From positions 1-43,910 of IMG/VR virus record IMGVR_UViG_3300009176_000042: a DNA stretch of 43,910 nt. One strand, written 5' to 3'. Of this stretch, positions 2,233-41,702 are shown piece after piece. Source of the DNA: a virus. The notes under the pieces are model-generated. The model searched no databases. It was given only the letters and a program-made list of their open reading frames with translations, and was not told where the DNA came from. The first letter of the stretch is position 1. The number at the start of each line of letters is the position of its first letter. The translations under genes were made by a program, and so were the position numbers.

Positions 2233-3830
2233 GCGATATGATGTCGACCGCTGATGTCGAGCAAGCCCGCAAGCGATCCGTCACTCGGCAAGACGCGATC
2301 CCGGCGACGGCGGCGGCACCGTTTACCATTCTCATGGGCCCAGTGGGCCTGCTGAGCGGTATACCCGGCATTGCGCAGTATGGTCAATTCTCTCTGCCCC
2401 CACAAGGCAGCATCGGGCGCGATCGGCTGCTCTCTCAGACTCCCCAGTTTGAAAACATGTGGGCCGACTCTATCTTCAAGGCGATATCCAAGAAGGTTGC
2501 TCAGGGCTTCAGGATCGAGGACTCCGACGATAGCGCGCGGCGCATCAAGGCGGCCCAGCAACTGATCCTGGGATACGACGGCAGCTATGCCAGCGGGCTG
2601 CAGCGGGGCCTGCAAGATTACTTGCTCGCCGACCTGGGCATGGTTGTCGAGAAGGCCCGGCAGTCGAGCGCACGCGGGAGTAGGATCGCGGGGCTGTTTC
2701 ACCTCGACGCGCTCAGGTGCTATCCGACCGGCGATCCCAATAAGCCGATCGTCTATTGGTCATACTATGGCGGCTATCATTTGCTCGACGCCGAAGACGT
2801 GATCCGGATCACCGACATGCCCAGCCCCAGGGTCGAGATGCGCGGCTATGGGATGTGTGCAGCCTCACGATCCTGGGCGACTGTCCTGAAGCTAGCAGCC
2901 GTCGAAGTCTACTTCAGAGAGAAGATCACCGGTACGCGAAACCTGGCTATTCATTTAGTCAACGGCGTGTCAGATAAGATGCTGCGCGACGCGCTCAACA
3001 GTTCGGACGATGCGCGCGATCAGCGGGGCTTTGTGCTGTATAAGGGCTCGACCATTGTTCCAATGATCGAGATGGCGGCAACGCCGACGGTTGTTACGAT
3101 CCCATTGGCTGAAGTTCCGGACGGCTTCGACGTCAAAGAAGAGCGAACCGACGCCTATCGGCGCTATGCCCACTCGATCGGCATGAACGTCGAAGACTTT
3201 GTGCCGGCGCCGGCCGGGCTCAATACGGGGCTGTCGACCCAGATTCGCGACGAAGGCATAGCAGGGCAGGGCATGGCGGCGTTTGACAAGAACTGGGAGC
3301 TTGCCCTAACCCATACCGCGCTACCCGGCTCGACGACCTTTTATATGGGAACGAACGAAGATTGGCGCGATCAGACCATGAAGGCCCAGGCCGAGAAGGC
3401 CCGCGCGGACAAGCTGAAGGTCTATGTCGACGCCGGCGCGATCAGTCCTATGCAGATGCTCAATGCGGCGGTCGACGCGGGCGATCTCGACGAGGCGTTT
3501 CTACCTGCTGACGCGACAGAGGCGGGCAACATAAACGACAATGAGAAGCTGATCAGCGGCGAGGCCCAGGCTCGGGCCCCAGTCGTCACGCCGCTGCCGT
3601 CGAATACGCCGCAAGCGCAAGGCGGCGGCGGGGCCCCGCCGGTTGCCAAAGAATACAAGTTCAAAGAGTGCAGGCACTGCGGCGATCATTCGCCCGCGAG
3701 CGCGCTGTATTGTTCCTTCTGTGATCAGCCGTTTGGCGTGGTCAAGGATGTCGACACAACTCCAGACTTGATCAATCAGGAATGGCGCGCGGCGCTCGAC
3801 TGGGCCCGTAAGGCGCGCGGCGATGGCTGA
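2229..3830 (+). CDS. portal protein with C-terminal zinc-ribbon-like tail
   Basis: A 533-residue protein directly after terL, of the size and position of a siphovirus portal. It forms the dodecameric ring at the packaging vertex. Portal-like features include the segment around DALRCYPTGDPNKPIVYW (about residues 155-172), a predicted helical stem region, and a MuF-like gene immediately downstream with an 8-base overlap. Unusually, the C-terminal region (about residues 477-500) holds two Cys-x2-Cys pairs, CRHCG and CSFCD, separated by about 13 residues, which look like a zinc ribbon, preceded by a Gly/Pro/Gln-rich linker. The family assignment rests on synteny and general sequence character. 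Confidence 0.8.
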   Translation: MSDMMSTADVEQARKRSVTRQDAIPATAAAPFTILMGPVGLLSGIPGIAQYGQFSLPPQGSIGRDRLLSQTPQFENMWADSIFKAISKKVAQGFRIEDSDDSARRIKAAQQLILGYDGSYASGLQRGLQDYLLADLGMVVEKARQSSARGSRIAGLFHLDALRCYPTGDPNKPIVYWSYYGGYHLLDAEDVIRITDMPSPRVEMRGYGMCAASRSWATVLKLAAVEVYFREKITGTRNLAIHLVNGVSDKMLRDALNSSDDARDQRGFVLYKGSTIVPMIEMAATPTVVTIPLAEVPDGFDVKEERTDAYRRYAHSIGMNVEDFVPAPAGLNTGLSTQIRDEGIAGQGMAAFDKNWELALTHTALPGSTTFYMGTNEDWRDQTMKAQAEKARADKLKVYVDAGAISPMQMLNAAVDAGDLDEAFLPADATEAGNINDNEKLISGEAQARAPVVTPLPSNTPQAQGGGGAPPVAKEYKFKECRHCGDHSPASALYCSFCDQPFGVVKDVDTTPDLINQEWRAALDWARKARGDG

Positions 3831-4365
3831 CACGCCGACCAACCTACACGCCTTAACGCTCGACGCGATTCAGGCGCTGGACTTCAGTAAGCCCGGCTGG
3901 GCCAAACAGATGGACGCGATCATCGCGCGGGGGCATACGGCGGCCGCGCTGGCAGCGACAGCCGATCGGGCTGGGGTGCCGCTTGATCCGAAGCTGTTTC
4001 GGGGGCTGTCGAGGGCTGAGCGTAAAGACATCGATCAGCTCGTACGTGTGCAGCGGCAGTACCTGAAGGACTTCGTAGCGGCGGCCGAGGGGCTGAGCGA
4101 AGCCCAGATCGCAGCTCGGGCGGGCCTCTACGCTGGGGCTGTGCGGCAGACGTACTATAGCCAGCGCTGGGGCGACTGGATTATACCACCGGACTTGTTG
4201 CCGGGCAATCAGACCTGCATTACGAACTGCAAGTGTCGGATCAGCGTACGCGACAACAACGACGGCACCGGCGAATTGACTCGCGAGATGGGCGGCACTG
4301 AGGATCATTGCGACGAATGCCCCGCGCTCGTCGGCACCTATCCGGTAAAGCGGCAAAAGGCATGA
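3823..4365 (+). CDS. MuF-like minor head protein
   Basis: A 180-residue protein whose C-terminal part contains a CITNCKCRISVRDN segment and a following HCDECPALVGTYP segment, typical of the Cys-rich C-terminus of phage Mu gpF-like minor head proteins. The N-terminal two thirds are helical. It is shorter than full MuF proteins and lacks a fused effector domain. It overlaps the portal gene by 8 bases and couples to the next gene by ATGA, the usual portal-MuF-neck order. Minor head proteins of this type sit inside the capsid at the portal and help morphogenesis. Confidence 0.7.
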   Translation: MADTPTNLHALTLDAIQALDFSKPGWAKQMDAIIARGHTAAALAATADRAGVPLDPKLFRGLSRAERKDIDQLVRVQRQYLKDFVAAAEGLSEAQIAARAGLYAGAVRQTYYSQRWGDWIIPPDLLPGNQTCITNCKCRISVRDNNDGTGELTREMGGTEDHCDECPALVGTYPVKRQKA

Positions 4366-36455: not shown

Positions 36456-37343
36456 TCAACCGCTGGTATGATGCTCGACGATCAGTCGACCGATAAATTC
36501 TGCCACCTGCGGTACTACGGCGTTGCCTAGTCCTCTAAGTCTGTCCACCCGAGCGGGAATCCCATGAGCCATTCGACCCACTGCGGGTTCAGTTGCCCAC
36601 TGATACCGTCCGACTGTCGCACGAAATGTGCTAAGTCGATCTGCCGCTTTTTGCCGTCCGGTGTCATCCCGGTTAAAGACATGCCGCCCTTGGGACTGCG
36701 GCCACCATTCGGGACCGTCGGCGTCGGCCAAAGGTGCGGATACTTGCCCTGCTGTATTGCCTTGACCATTACATTTAGGCTGCTGATCGTGTTGCGCGGC
36801 CCGCCAACCATGCGGGCTTTCATCGCCATGTGTGCTTCGGGTGATTTGTTGTCGTCGTTCGCGACTGGTGTAGGCCACAATGAAGACTCGATCGCGCCGA
36901 TGCGGCGCACCAACGGCGGCCGCCGGTATGCACTGCCATTCCGCATCATACCCGATCGCGGCCAGGTCTCCGAGTACAGTTGATAATCCTCGAACAAGCA
37001 AAGCTGATACGTTTTCCACAAGCACGTATCTGGGTCGTAATTCGCGAATGATTCGGGCGTATTCGCTCCATAGTCCGGATCGAGTGCCGGTGATTCCGGC
37101 GCGTTGTCCTGCATTGCTGATGTCCTGACAGGGGAAGCCCCCGCAGATAAGGTCGACCGGCGATAGACTGTCAGCGCCAACGCTCCGCACGTCGCGAAAC
37201 TTCGGTACACTGGGCCAATGCTTTGTGAGGACTCGGGTGCTGTAGTCGTCAATTTCTACCTGCCACTTGCACACCATGCCGGCGCGCTCTAATCCAAGAT
37301 CCAGCCCGCCAATGCCAGCGAACAATGAGCCAAACGTTATCAT
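36456..37343 (-). CDS. C5-cytosine DNA methyltransferase (Dcm-like)
   Basis: A 295-residue enzyme with the ordered C5 motifs: I (FGSLFAGIGGLDLGLE, residues 4-19), IV with catalytic Cys72 in GGFPCQDIS, VI (ENV, 110-112), VIII (HRRDRVFIVA, about 148-157), a short target-recognition region, and IX-X (GRMAHGIPARVDRLRGLGNA, then VVPQVAEFIG). It methylates cytosine within a short unknown target, probably to resist host restriction. The TCAT overlap joins it to the VRR-NUC gene upstream. A second, family-like reading frame runs through most of the gene. No partner restriction enzyme is present. Confidence 0.92.
   Translation of the reverse strand: MITFGSLFAGIGGLDLGLERAGMVCKWQVEIDDYSTRVLTKHWPSVPKFRDVRSVGADSLSPVDLICGGFPCQDISNAGQRAGITGTRSGLWSEYARIIRELRPRYVLVENVSALLVRGLSTVLGDLAAIGYDAEWQCIPAAAVGAPHRRDRVFIVAYTSRERRQQITRSTHGDESPHGWRAAQHDQQPKCNGQGNTAGQVSAPLADADGPEWWPQSQGRHVFNRDDTGRQKAADRLSTFRATVGRYQWATEPAVGRMAHGIPARVDRLRGLGNAVVPQVAEFIGRLIVEHHTSG
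36527..37252 (-). CDS. overlapping +1-frame protein of the WPTP / LNPxWVEWLMG type inside dcm
   Basis: An open frame of up to 241 codons lies in the +1 frame of the methyltransferase gene. It reads like a known group of phage proteins found near methylase genes: SPVRTS, YDPDTCLWKTYQLCLF, YSETWPRSGMMRNGSAY, RRPPLVRRI, two WPTP motifs and the ending SGQLNPQWVEWLMGFPLGWT. From memory, proteins with this series also occur as stand-alone genes, but I cannot verify that here. The start is unclear: TTG at 37252 or ATG at 37114, with AGGA upstream of the latter. It may be a real second product, a decaying overprinted gene, or a compositional shadow. Confidence 0.4.
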   Translation of the reverse strand: MTTTAPESSQSIGPVYRSFATCGALALTVYRRSTLSAGASPVRTSAMQDNAPESPALDPDYGANTPESFANYDPDTCLWKTYQLCLFEDYQLYSETWPRSGMMRNGSAYRRPPLVRRIGAIESSLWPTPVANDDNKSPEAHMAMKARMVGGPRNTISSLNVMVKAIQQGKYPHLWPTPTVPNGGRSPKGGMSLTGMTPDGKKRQIDLAHFVRQSDGISGQLNPQWVEWLMGFPLGWTDLED

Positions 37344-37804
37344 TGTTTGCGCGCCTTCCCTAGCTTCTCCCAGTCGTCAACCGTCTGCGCTCCAAAGGCG
37401 TCAGCCAGGCCGCTTCTCAGCTCGTCGACGCTATGCGCAATGATGACAATGCCGTTGCGCCGCAAGATAAATTCTTTCTGCCGCAGCTGCGCGGTCGAAG
37501 GCGATCCTTTGGCGCTCTTAATTTCTATGCTCACGTATTTCCCATTAGGTGCGCAGCAGGTTCTGTCGTGCGTGCCAACGCGGCCCATGCTCATCTTGCG
37601 GCCCTCAATCTGGGCCATGCCTGCCGACGTGCGCAACACATAAAAGTCGAGCAGGGCTAGATAGTCGTCGATCGCCTTCGATACTTTGGCCTCGGGCGTC
37701 GCGCCGCGCCGGATCGGTTTGGCCTGTCGACCTGGGACATAGGTTTTCTCATAGTCGGTAATCTCGCCTGGGGGGCCATCGAAGGCCCATGGCTCGTCGA
37801 TCAT
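37340..37804 (-). CDS. VRR-NUC domain nuclease
   Basis: A 154-residue protein with a PD-(D/E)xK-type VRR-NUC core: GRVGTHDRTCC (Asp80), then SIEIKSAKGSPSTAQ, supplying Glu94, Lys96 and Gln106. These residues fit the family active site, which cuts branched DNA structures. The N-terminus carries a Pro-rich extension before the core helix (EAKVSKAIDDYL). Located between two methyltransferases, it may process replication or recombination intermediates; a restriction-like role is less likely given the family. The stop overlaps the start of the C5 methyltransferase. Confidence 0.8.
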   Translation of the reverse strand: MIDEPWAFDGPPGEITDYEKTYVPGRQAKPIRRGATPEAKVSKAIDDYLALLDFYVLRTSAGMAQIEGRKMSMGRVGTHDRTCCAPNGKYVSIEIKSAKGSPSTAQLRQKEFILRRNGIVIIAHSVDELRSGLADAFGAQTVDDWEKLGKARKQ

Positions 37805-37805
37805 G

Positions 37806-39548
37806 TTAATCCTCCATGAACATATCTAATTGGCCAGCAGGTACTGCTGCTGCGCTGACGACGGTCGGCTTGCGATCGGGATCTGATAACTCCCATGCGC
37901 GCTGTTTCCAGTAGGCCAGCCGCGCGTTGGCGATGGCGACATGCTCGGCTTCGAGCTCGACGCCGGTGATCTCTTCCCAGCCTGCCAGCATGGCCCCGAT
38001 GGCTTCGCTGCCGGCCCCAGCGAACGGGATCAGCAGTCGACGCGGGCCATAGGCGGCCGGCGGCAGTAGCAGGGTTGCCAGGTAGCGCGACAGGCTGATC
38101 GGCTTAATCGTCGGGTGAATATTGCGCCGGGTTGTTTCGCCACGCTGGTATGGGTTGTCGATCGACACGTCGCGCCCGTCGTCGACTTTGGAATCGCCGA
38201 AGTCTGCCGCATCTTCGTCGAGCAGCCGCATGAGCGCGGTCTGACGCGGGTCGAGTCCGGCCTCCCTTTCAGCAGTCGACGCCTTTGCGATATACGCAAC
38301 CGGATCGGCGGCTTCGAGCCGGTCGAGCATCCAATCAGCGGCGTAAAAGTAGCGCGACGCGGTGCCGCTGTCGTCGTGGCCGCGCGGTATTGTTGAATCT
38401 CTTTTCTCCCATTGGCCCAGCACAGTACCGCCAAATGATCCCATGTTGACCCCACCACGCATGGCCCGCTTCGCTTCACTCTCGCCACTCTGGGCCCCCA
38501 GCCGCGCGACAGGGCAGGATGGGATGCAGACGCCGTTGCACTCGGGCGCATGCGTCAGCACGAGATTCGCGGGCCATCGGCCCAGTTGATTGGGGCTGCC
38601 GACTGTGCTTTGATCGACATCCGTCGATTGATAGATAGCATCAAATTGCGGGCGCGTTCGTGTTGTATAGGTTGTCGGTTCGTTATGGCTTATCCTCCCG
38701 CCATCTATCCATAGCGCGCCTGCGCCGGTCGACGTGATGTTGTCCACTGGCGATCCGTCGTACGGCTTCTGGAAAACAATGATCGGCTCAAGCGCGGGCT
38801 TGATTGCCTGCCCGCCATACCGATGGCCGGCCCAGTCGGCTGCGCTTGCTGTCGCCGGGCCATGCACGTCGAAGGACTCGCGCTCTTTGCTGTTGAAGCC
38901 GTTGTCTTTCTCGCGATAGCCGAGCTCAGCAGCTGCAAACTTTGGCTGATGTTTCTTTGTGCGCTCGACCGGCGCAAAGCCTGCGGCAGCCTTGATCGTC
39001 TTGCGGGCCTGCTGATATGCGCGCAACGCGGCGACGCGCTCGACCTTCGGTGCTAGGCGTGCTGCCTGTCGCAACGTCTCAAGCTGATCGCGCTCTGCCG
39101 GATGCTCGTCGAGCCAGGCCCGAAACGCGCGATCGTCGATCTGGGCGCTGATGTTGGTTGCCTTTGGAAAACCCGAACCGTAACTCCAGCCAAAGATCGT
39201 CGGCTGTATGATCAGCCCGGCGTCTTCGATCGCGACAGCCAAACGATGCCAGCCGCGCGACGATGCAAACACCATGCCCCATGCGCCCGGGTAGAGGTGC
39301 TGCGCTATCGCGGCCCAGGTCGACGGGCGAAACGCGATGTCGCCGCCATCCCAGGTGGCATTCATGAATCCGCGCGACGCGCGACTAAAAGCACCATCCG
39401 TGCCAAACTGAGCCGGGGCTGATCCTGCCTTCCCGAACCGCTCAGTTATACTTGTGAGATGGTACGGCGGATCGCAAAGCAGGGCATGAAACTTCGGCCC
39501 GGTATAGGTCTGGGCCCATGTCAGGATATCGGCTTGAAGCATGGTCAT
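37806..39548 (-). CDS. DPPY-type DNA amino-methyltransferase, 580 aa
   Basis: Motif IV, DPPY, lies near the N-terminus (Asp26-Tyr29 in LLCDPPYHLTS), and the SAM-binding motif I region is near the C-terminus (LLIPFAGAGSEAIGAMLAGW), with HPTIKP shortly before it. This order is that of beta-class N6-adenine or N4-cytosine methyltransferases. A long central region (about residues 130-460) probably holds target recognition, with a Cys cluster CNGVCIPSC. The C-terminus ends QLDMFMED, resembling a sliding-clamp-binding peptide. DPPY favours adenine N6 methylation. It is larger than most phage relatives; ATG 39542 is an alternative start. Confidence 0.85.
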   Translation of the reverse strand: MTMLQADILTWAQTYTGPKFHALLCDPPYHLTSITERFGKAGSAPAQFGTDGAFSRASRGFMNATWDGGDIAFRPSTWAAIAQHLYPGAWGMVFASSRGWHRLAVAIEDAGLIIQPTIFGWSYGSGFPKATNISAQIDDRAFRAWLDEHPAERDQLETLRQAARLAPKVERVAALRAYQQARKTIKAAAGFAPVERTKKHQPKFAAAELGYREKDNGFNSKERESFDVHGPATASAADWAGHRYGGQAIKPALEPIIVFQKPYDGSPVDNITSTGAGALWIDGGRISHNEPTTYTTRTRPQFDAIYQSTDVDQSTVGSPNQLGRWPANLVLTHAPECNGVCIPSCPVARLGAQSGESEAKRAMRGGVNMGSFGGTVLGQWEKRDSTIPRGHDDSGTASRYFYAADWMLDRLEAADPVAYIAKASTAEREAGLDPRQTALMRLLDEDAADFGDSKVDDGRDVSIDNPYQRGETTRRNIHPTIKPISLSRYLATLLLPPAAYGPRRLLIPFAGAGSEAIGAMLAGWEEITGVELEAEHVAIANARLAYWKQRAWELSDPDRKPTVVSAAAVPAGQLDMFMED

Positions 39549-39949: not shown

Positions 39950-40342
39950 CTATTCTCCTTTTACGTCAGTGCGCGCCACACTGGACGCACTCGAATACCC
40001 GTCCGGATAGCGCTCGCGTAGCTTGGCGACGTTGCGCTCCATTACTTCAGACATGTTCACGTCAAGCTTGGTACAGAGGGCTGCAATGTACCAAAGCACA
40101 TCGCCTAACTCGTCGATCAGCTGATCGCGATTGATCCCATGTTGATGAAACACGGCTTTCTTGAGTGTATCGGCGACTTCGCCAGCTTCCCCAGCCAGGC
40201 CCAGTCCACAGCGTACCAGCATGATCTCATAGTCGGTATAGACCTGATCGGGAGAGTCCGGCAGCGTGCGACTGCTCAGCCATTGATATTCGTTCGCATA
40301 GATCATCTTGATAATGGCCCTTTGTTCTGGGATGGCTAGCAT
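39950..40342 (-). CDS. MazG-like nucleotide pyrophosphohydrolase
   Basis: Start taken at the ATG at 40342, which overlaps the end of the upstream methyltransferase; the open frame further upstream is its shadow. The 130-residue product has the all-alpha NTP pyrophosphatase motifs: GLAGEAGEVADTLKKA with the Glu-x2-Glu type metal site and DELGDVLWYIAALC with the second Glu/Asp pair. MazG-like enzymes hydrolyse NTPs or (p)ppGpp-related nucleotides; in phages they may support nucleotide pools or dampen stress signalling. It lies in the replication and modification operon. Confidence 0.85.
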   Translation of the reverse strand: MLAIPEQRAIIKMIYANEYQWLSSRTLPDSPDQVYTDYEIMLVRCGLGLAGEAGEVADTLKKAVFHQHGINRDQLIDELGDVLWYIAALCTKLDVNMSEVMERNVAKLRERYPDGYSSASSVARTDVKGE

Positions 40343-41505
40343 AGCTGCATTTCCACTTGCACGCCGTTGGTGCGCTCTTCTTGGAGGTCTATGTAGGCCG
40401 GATTCAGGTCGATCAGCATGCTGTCGCGCTGATGCCGCTCCGCGACGCGGGCGACGGTGCCGGTGCCGCCGAACGGATCGAGCACGATCGAGCGCGCCGT
40501 GCCAGTGTTGGCGGGGCATGCGCAGCGCGGGGCGAAACCGCGATCGGTGTGGAATGGCACGCGCCGCATGTCGTTTTCATCATTCCGATCGCCGTTGCCA
40601 CGATTGCGCGGAACATTCGTTTTGCGGTATTCGGGATGGTCATGCGGTAATTCGTCCAGTCCTAATCGTGTCACGTCCACAACCCGCCCCCACGCTTTCC
40701 CGCACGTCTCGCACGCTTGCGCGCTGGAGCCGGCCAGGATGCACGGCGCGATCAGCGCTTCCGGCATGGTTGCGAAGTGCGCGCCGGCGTAGGGCTGAGT
40801 CGCGATCGTCCAGACCGATCGGCGGTTGCGTGTGCCGTCCGGCCGCGATCCTAATGATTGTTCTCCGCTGGGCGGTTTGTAATCATTCCGATCGGGCGCG
40901 GATGAATAGGCGTTCGTCCGATCGGTTGCCCGATCACCCCATCGCGCGATTGTGCTGGCGCTGATCGGCTCCACGATCGCGGTCGCATCGTAGAAATAGC
41001 GCTGGCGTTTGGCGAATAAGAACAGATATTCATGCGCCCGCGTCGGTCGGTCGCGGACGCTTTCGGGCATGGGATTCGGCTTCGCCCAGATAATATCGGA
41101 ACGCAGAATCCACCCGGCGTCTTGGAGCGCCAGCGCGACGCGCCATGGCATGCCCAGGAGATTCTTTTCTGGCCGATCGCCTATGCCGCCGCGATCTGTT
41201 GAGGTGAATGTGCGCGTCGCACGCTGGCCGTTTGCGCCTTGAGGCCCGCCGGGCTTACTCGCATACGAATCCCCCAAGTTAAGCCACAGCGTTCCATCGT
41301 CACGTAGCACGCGCCAGCAGTCCGCGAACACCGCGACCAGCGCAGCGACGTACGCGGCCGGCGTCGGCTCTTGTCCGATTTCGCGCGGATCGTCCGTGTA
41401 CTTTCGCAGACCGTAGTAGGGCGGCGACGTGACGATCGTTTGTACTGATTGCGCTGGCAGCGTGGCCAGCACATCACGGCAATCGCCGGCAAGCAGTGTG
41501 ATCAT
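40336..41505 (-). CDS. SPPY-type DNA methyltransferase (probable N4-cytosine)
   Basis: Start at the ATG at 41505, overlapping the previous stop; 389 residues. Motif IV is TSPPYYGLRKY (Ser27-Tyr30) and motif I, DPFGGTGTVARVA, is near the C-terminus, the beta-class order. SPPY rather than DPPY favours N4-cytosine methylation, though adenine is not excluded. WIATQPYAGAHFATMP lies before a Cys set (CETCG and CAC) that may bind zinc. The recognition site is unknown. It is one of three methyltransferases here and has no cognate nuclease, fitting anti-restriction self-modification. Confidence 0.88.
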   Translation of the reverse strand: MITLLAGDCRDVLATLPAQSVQTIVTSPPYYGLRKYTDDPREIGQEPTPAAYVAALVAVFADCWRVLRDDGTLWLNLGDSYASKPGGPQGANGQRATRTFTSTDRGGIGDRPEKNLLGMPWRVALALQDAGWILRSDIIWAKPNPMPESVRDRPTRAHEYLFLFAKRQRYFYDATAIVEPISASTIARWGDRATDRTNAYSSAPDRNDYKPPSGEQSLGSRPDGTRNRRSVWTIATQPYAGAHFATMPEALIAPCILAGSSAQACETCGKAWGRVVDVTRLGLDELPHDHPEYRKTNVPRNRGNGDRNDENDMRRVPFHTDRGFAPRCACPANTGTARSIVLDPFGGTGTVARVAERHQRDSMLIDLNPAYIDLQEERTNGVQVEMQLC

Positions 41506-41702
41506 AGCGCGCTCAGCAGGTCGAGCGCGGCGTTGGTACGCTCCGATACTGGCAGGCGCAGCAGCCAGGCGATCGACGCCTCGGGCCGCGCCTTGCACTC
41601 GTCGCATACCAGCATACTGGTACGTGTCAAGTTGCACACGATGCAGCGGCCGGCCGCCGGCACCGGGCGCAGTCGACTGACTGAGATCAGTTTGTCATTC
41701 AT
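41502..41702 (-). CDS. small zinc-ribbon protein, 66 aa
   Basis: Two Cys pairs, CIVC and CDEC, about 10 residues apart, form a probable zinc ribbon at residues 20-36, followed by a helical tail. It overlaps the primase-helicase gene at its start and joins the downstream methyltransferase by ATGA. Such small ribbon proteins are common in phage replication operons; specific function is unknown. Confidence 0.6.
   Translation of the reverse strand: MNDKLISVSRLRPVPAAGRCIVCNLTRTSMLVCDECKARPEASIAWLLRLPVSERTNAALDLLSAL

Follow-up and report, generated by a model that had tools for sequence, protein, structure and literature searches.

Does the C5-cytosine DNA methyltransferase gene of a viral genome encode a second protein in its +1 frame, or is the second open frame a by-product of the first? 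The question arose from a 43,910-nucleotide stretch of viral DNA (IMG/VR record IMGVR_UViG_3300009176_000042, positions 1 to 43,910; in the following called the window), for which a first-pass annotation based on the letters alone had proposed two alternatives: true dual coding by two overprinted proteins, or a second protein family that is itself an annotation shadow of methyltransferase genes. The ORF listing confirmed both frames as described there. The catalytic chain, here called alpha, is located at 36456..37343 (-) and comprises 295 aa with motifs I-VIII and X, and a +1 ORF extends over 36527-37252 (-), with position 1 of each codon falling on alpha position 2. YSETWPRSGMMRNG, two WPTP motifs and LNPQWVEWLMGFPLGWTDL are all present in the +1 frame, and identical bases are indeed read as GRMAHGIPARVDRL in the alpha frame.

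The +1 ORF ends with a stop codon at 36527 and counts 241 codons from a TTG at 37252. Among 5000 synonymous shuffles, in which the alpha protein and the codon usage were held fixed, none reached an open stretch as long as the 242 codons observed (mean 86, maximum 212), and no such excess was found in three other large ORFs of the window (p 0.18-0.75). The open length of the first-pass annotation was thus correct, but 241 aa is only the upper limit for the product. As beta-frame stops occur in relatives up to alpha codon 84 and then disappear, the likely product in the window, here called beta, starts with the ATG at 37114 and has 195 aa (36527..37114 (-)). A possible Shine-Dalgarno sequence, AGGA, is located 8 nt before this ATG (37123..37126 (-)). 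The start codon of beta varies among relatives, and a start preceded by a Shine-Dalgarno-like sequence at alpha codons 76-92 was detected in 68 of 130 loci compared to 44±5 in synonymous shuffles, which is suggestive of a dedicated beta start.

Selection on both reading frames

Relatives were collected in two ways: 80 viral loci were fetched by beta and 80 by alpha alone without any beta criterion, which left 130 distinct loci after removal of redundancy. All 80 loci selected by alpha also encode beta. In the 130 relatives, stops in the beta frame are frequent up to alpha codon 84, absent from codon 85 to about codon 257, reduced to three up to codon 266 and frequent again after codon 268. The first-pass annotation had reasoned that a meaningless frame would accumulate stops freely among close relatives. 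What we found in the tested region is a single stop compared to 419±15 expected from synonymous shuffles of the 130 loci, and the beta frame is open in 129 of them compared to 6.9 expected. The +2 frame, analyzed as a control, follows the null with 1023 stops versus 996, and the N-terminal third of alpha is also close to it (333 versus 375).

A second line of evidence comes from a beta profile, which scores hold-out bacterial loci with a median of 182 bits compared to 60 bits for their own synonymous shuffles; overall, the medians range from 182 to 209 bits for the real sequences and from 60 to 65 bits for the shuffles. The nonzero score of the shuffles indicates that part of the similarity between betas is a shadow of alpha, but this part amounts to only about a third.

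Furthermore, substitution rates at alpha codon positions 1/2/3 were determined from 34 independent close pairs. The rates are 0.088/0.057/0.317 in the N-terminal part, 0.130/0.054/0.232 in codons 88-158, 0.229/0.130/0.125 in the motif-IX region and 0.097/0.053/0.360 in the C-terminal tail, and the fastest site of the motif-IX region is alpha position 1, corresponding to the third position of the beta codons. For the TRD, the periodicity was initially obtained from pairs picked by beta similarity and was redone with pairs picked on DNA only to remove this bias. The resulting rates of 0.407/0.143/0.121 represent a pure beta-frame pattern, which means that the TRD evolves as beta and that alpha is a passive linker there. 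This is in line with the conservation of beta in parts of alpha codons 160-250, where alpha itself is not conserved.

Taken together, the constraint test suggested by the first-pass annotation revealed selection in both frames, about 180 codons are doubly coding, and dual coding at this locus is real. The shadow alternative, according to which beta would be an untranslated by-product of a conserved alpha protein and codon bias, can draw on the residual score of the shuffles and on Dcm-type monomers, which lack the nested feature and nevertheless show a mild depletion of +1 stops (185 versus 264±9). It fails as a full explanation in view of the stop depletion, the profile scores and the frame-specific substitution pattern, together with beta conservation at sites that are free to vary in alpha, and we regard it as extremely improbable.

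Probable division of the enzyme between two chains

Alpha matches Pfam PF00145 with an E-value of 9e-48, limited to residues 3-165 and to positions 2-168 of the 324-position profile. In the AF2 model, pLDDT is above 90 for most of residues 1-160 and for the last ~20 residues, and residues 163-231 and 243-269 are disordered with values below 50. The ordered part resembles the catalytic domain of M.HhaI (Foldseek E 8.6e-17; 162 aligned columns, 1.5 Å). The PF00145-type motifs I, IV (PCQ), VI (ENV), VIII and X are present: motif IV reads GGFPCQD and contains the catalytic Cys (37122..37142 (-)), with P71 and C72 invariant in alignment A3 and E110 and N111 invariant as well; the motif VIII region QCIPAAAVGAPHRRDRVF, recognized by sequence and alignment conservation, is located at 36882..36935 (-), and motif X GLGNAVVPQVAEFIGR with the invariant residues G273, N274 and V277 at 36486..36533 (-). 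No TRD and no motif IX were found within the alpha chain, and codons 160-247 show little conservation among relatives. The end of the profile match at position 168 of 324 in combination with the predicted disorder indicates that alpha carries motifs I-VIII and X without TRD or motif IX, so the earlier assignment of all canonical motifs to this frame has to be corrected.

Beta contains SETWPRSGMMRNG, WPTP units forming a TRD-like array, and a motif-IX-like segment, LNPQWVEWLMGFPLGWTD. The first of these elements (36935..36973 (-)) lies over GYDAEWQ of alpha, and both frames are conserved there (alpha codons 124-136). TRD unit 1, starting with WPTPVANDDNKSPEAHMAMKARMVGGPRNTISSLNVMVK, occupies 36731..36877 (-), a region that is an unconserved linker in the alpha frame; a near-identical unit occurs in seven further loci (L010, L049, L051, L083, L092, L101 and L172). 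Unit 2, WPTPTVPNGGRSPKGG...GKKRQIDLAHFVRQ, follows at 36593..36730 (-) and belongs to a family that is also found at other positions in L030, L049, L119 and L215. The motif-IX-like segment at 36539..36592 (-), read as GRMAHGIPARVDRL by alpha, was delineated by alignment, substitution rates and hhalign, and its spacing is as in motif IX. In the hhalign comparison with the Dcm family, LNPQWVEWLMGFP was set on RRLTPRECARLMGF of E. coli Dcm, a match that is not significant (E=0.1, 0.6% probability). Replacing the alpha linker by TRD and IX of beta in a chimera extended the PF00145 match from positions 2-168 to 2-321 and raised it from 163.8 to 169 bits. Position, pattern, this chimera and the type-2 variants with the order TRD-IX-X suggest that the segment corresponds to motif IX.

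These results make it very likely, in our opinion, that the locus encodes, by means of nested overlapping genes, a C5 methyltransferase that consists of two polypeptides and is similar in kind to M.EcoHK31I. Alpha in frame 0 would contribute motifs I-VIII and X and form the catalytic domain, which binds SAM. Beta would begin within alpha at about codon 77-86, probably via its own internal ribosome binding site, and would supply the TRD in the form of the WPTP array as well as motif IX in the +1 frame. In the proposed heterodimer, beta may fill the position at the cleft that is taken by the small domain in monomeric enzymes, and its units may set the specificity. As a phage enzyme it would most likely shield the phage DNA from host restriction. 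Thus, the idea of two overprinted proteins holds, but the second protein is not an unrelated one; very probably it represents the other half of the enzyme, which alpha does not contain.

Two further explanations of the dual coding have to be considered. A single chain could arise by two programmed frameshifts, leading from motifs I-VIII of alpha into the TRD and motif IX of the beta frame and back for motif X, which would restore the canonical motif order and is reminiscent of the halves that appear as split ORFs in some mycobacteriophage records. However, the constraint on beta sets in at about codon 98, within a part in which motifs V-VIII of alpha are constrained too, and because both readings of codons 98-158 are conserved, one shifted chain cannot explain the pattern. 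We therefore consider this route unlikely. We estimate it to be just as unlikely that beta, although truly overprinted, is a protein acting outside of methylation, for example in anti-restriction or regulation. Such a role would fit the search results for beta by itself, which has no significant match to known methyltransferases: beta alone gave no significant hit in Pfam, NCBIfam or PDB, the type-2 betas carrying IX and X gave no PF00145 match in searches against Pfam and PDB, and a Foldseek search with the poor AF2 model of beta alone (pLDDT 66) yielded nothing. But the parts apparently supplied by beta are precisely those missing from alpha, and the type-2 and fused variants link beta segments to motif X. 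Moreover, alpha and beta are never apart: none of the 251 loci contains beta without alpha. The first-pass annotation had proposed a search for stand-alone homologues of beta as a test for a real protein; this was the wrong test, since beta shows the behavior of a partner that is strictly dependent on alpha, and stand-alone copies are absent for this reason.

Exchangeable units and comparison with known enzymes

The TRD of the proposed two-chain enzyme has a modular organization. Beta proteins contain one to five [WLFY]PT[PAM] units with a median length of 38 aa, and 15 of 23 unit families were found at differing positions, the biggest family being a loose single-linkage cluster. In about half of the independent DNA matches between TRDs (34/67), the two positions differ by more than 60 nt, and the register is kept in all 213 candidate TRD matches. 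In Pseudomonas loci with flanking DNA that is 92-96% identical, the units differ in number, kind and order. Conversely, unit 1 of the window (WPTPVANDDNKSPEAHMAMKARM..GGPR) is near-identical in distant loci, in which the rest of beta is only ~40-54% identical. This exchange of units between relatives is the behavior expected of specificity cassettes, and it seems feasible that the units determine the target sequence.

Tandem exchangeable TRD units are a feature of the multispecific C5 methyltransferases of Bacillus phages (SPR, phi3T type). By description, these resemble the window gene in that one phage enzyme carries such units, but they are placed in a single chain there and in a nested second frame here. 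The closest counterpart in terms of subunit structure is M.EcoHK31I (YGGCCR), which consists of chains of ~309 and 176 aa encoded by genes overlapping in different frames; these sizes are close to the ~295 aa of alpha and ~195 aa of beta. In PMC3404938, motifs I-VIII and X are assigned to the large chain of M.EcoHK31I and only motif IX to the small chain. The window shows the same division, with IX of beta assigned by position, pattern and chimera. The differences are that the predicted TRD of M.EcoHK31I is placed in the larger chain (PMC3404938), whereas the TRD of the window evolves in the beta frame, and that the window gene is a phage gene with exchangeable WPTP units, which the part of PMC3404938 considered does not describe for M.EcoHK31I. 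An E. coli genome search yielded prophage methyltransferases only. M.AquI (CYCGRG) is likewise a split C5 methyltransferase whose two chains jointly hold all motifs, divided into I-VIII and IX-X (PMC3404938). In contrast, the window keeps motif X in the large chain, its small chain does not combine IX with X, and its beta gene lies within the alpha gene in a different frame. An M.AquI-like division into I-VIII and TRD-IX-X, with alpha ending after VIII or lacking X, is present in Firecracker gp6/gp5 and in L234, L244 and L245, and L087 also has TRD-IX-X in one beta frame.

Distribution, annotation and gene neighborhood

Of 372 beta domain hits, 354 overlap alpha, all in a single phase, and the remaining 18, which do not overlap it, come from alpha-containing loci and lie on the alpha strand. 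Beta loci occur in Pseudomonadota, Actinomycetota, Bacillota, Planctomycetota, Verrucomicrobiota, Spirochaetota and archaeal MAGs. A second, distantly related methyltransferase family of enterobacterial prophages (E. coli PT62, L171:440-1423) has a beta with LNPAHSRWLMGLPRAW and shows two beta stops compared to 235±12 expected (codons 125-295, 76 sequences). The double coding hence occurs in hundreds of phages and bacteria and spans many bacterial phyla, archaeal MAGs and two distant methyltransferase families. In prokaryotes, long nested overlaps with deep conservation are seldom found, and they tend to be discarded by annotation pipelines. It appears somewhat probable to us that these loci represent a global class of C5 methyltransferases in which the catalytic gene permanently harbors the specificity subunit in its +1 frame, that this subunit is an array of exchangeable cassettes shuffled in frame by phages and bacteria, possibly with several specificities per enzyme, and that few nested gene pairs of prokaryotes are as old or as widespread.

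Most records annotate alpha only (e.g., L002, L009, L332-L335, L337, L338 and L170/L171 of E. coli), the records of Rctr197k and Microcystis phage Mwe-JY08 contain beta only, and both chains are annotated mainly where the halves overlap partly. As one of the two subunits is thus usually missing from database records, an enzyme cloned according to its annotation could be devoid of the specificity half and appear inactive in tests. Beta has no Pfam or NCBIfam model and corresponds to phrog_1008, which was matched by 99 of 99 beta proteins and by beta of the window at 5.3e-27. This family is labeled only as 'DNA methyltransferase', phrog_26627, phrog_27243 and phrog_31772 are mostly unknown, and the overlap is not stated. 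Literature searches did not reveal any report of such an overlap in phages, and compared to the literature covered, its breadth, the evidence for selection, the shuffling of units and the gap in annotation are new. The way in which WPTP units are shuffled hints at a code of C5 methylation specificity that could be read, and the locus is a clean system for studying two proteins that evolve on one stretch of DNA.

A partly fused variant exists in some mycobacteriophages (Babsiella gp54, Geralt gp64), in which TRD-IX-X is in the alpha frame, and in Babsiella gp55 the N-terminal part of beta persists in the other frame. The loci of Geralt and Babsiella (L004, L006) contain in-frame LPTP repeats in the long methylase TRD as well as LPTP units in the other frame, so that the array looks as if it straddled a frame change. 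In Mycobacterium phage Llama (gp74/gp75, L007:1281-2040), alpha is divided into two ORFs by a shift near its codon 119, which breaks the beta frame as well; an identical two-piece match was observed in Modragons, Seabastian, OfUltron, Ochi17, AlpineSix and Jinglebell, and the broken form is common to several isolates. The E. coli PT62 prophage carries two different C5 methyltransferase genes (L171:440-1423 and 3398-4135), each with its own nested beta frame.

In the window, the region adjoining the C5 gene (37340-41637) encodes two further DNA methyltransferases of the phrog_67 type (37806-39548 and 40336-41637) as well as an endonuclease (37340-37804) and a MazG-like pyrophosphatase (39950-40519). 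One of the neighboring methyltransferases also harbors a nested +1 ORF of 173 aa (38030-38551 (-)), the length of which is within chance (p 0.19).
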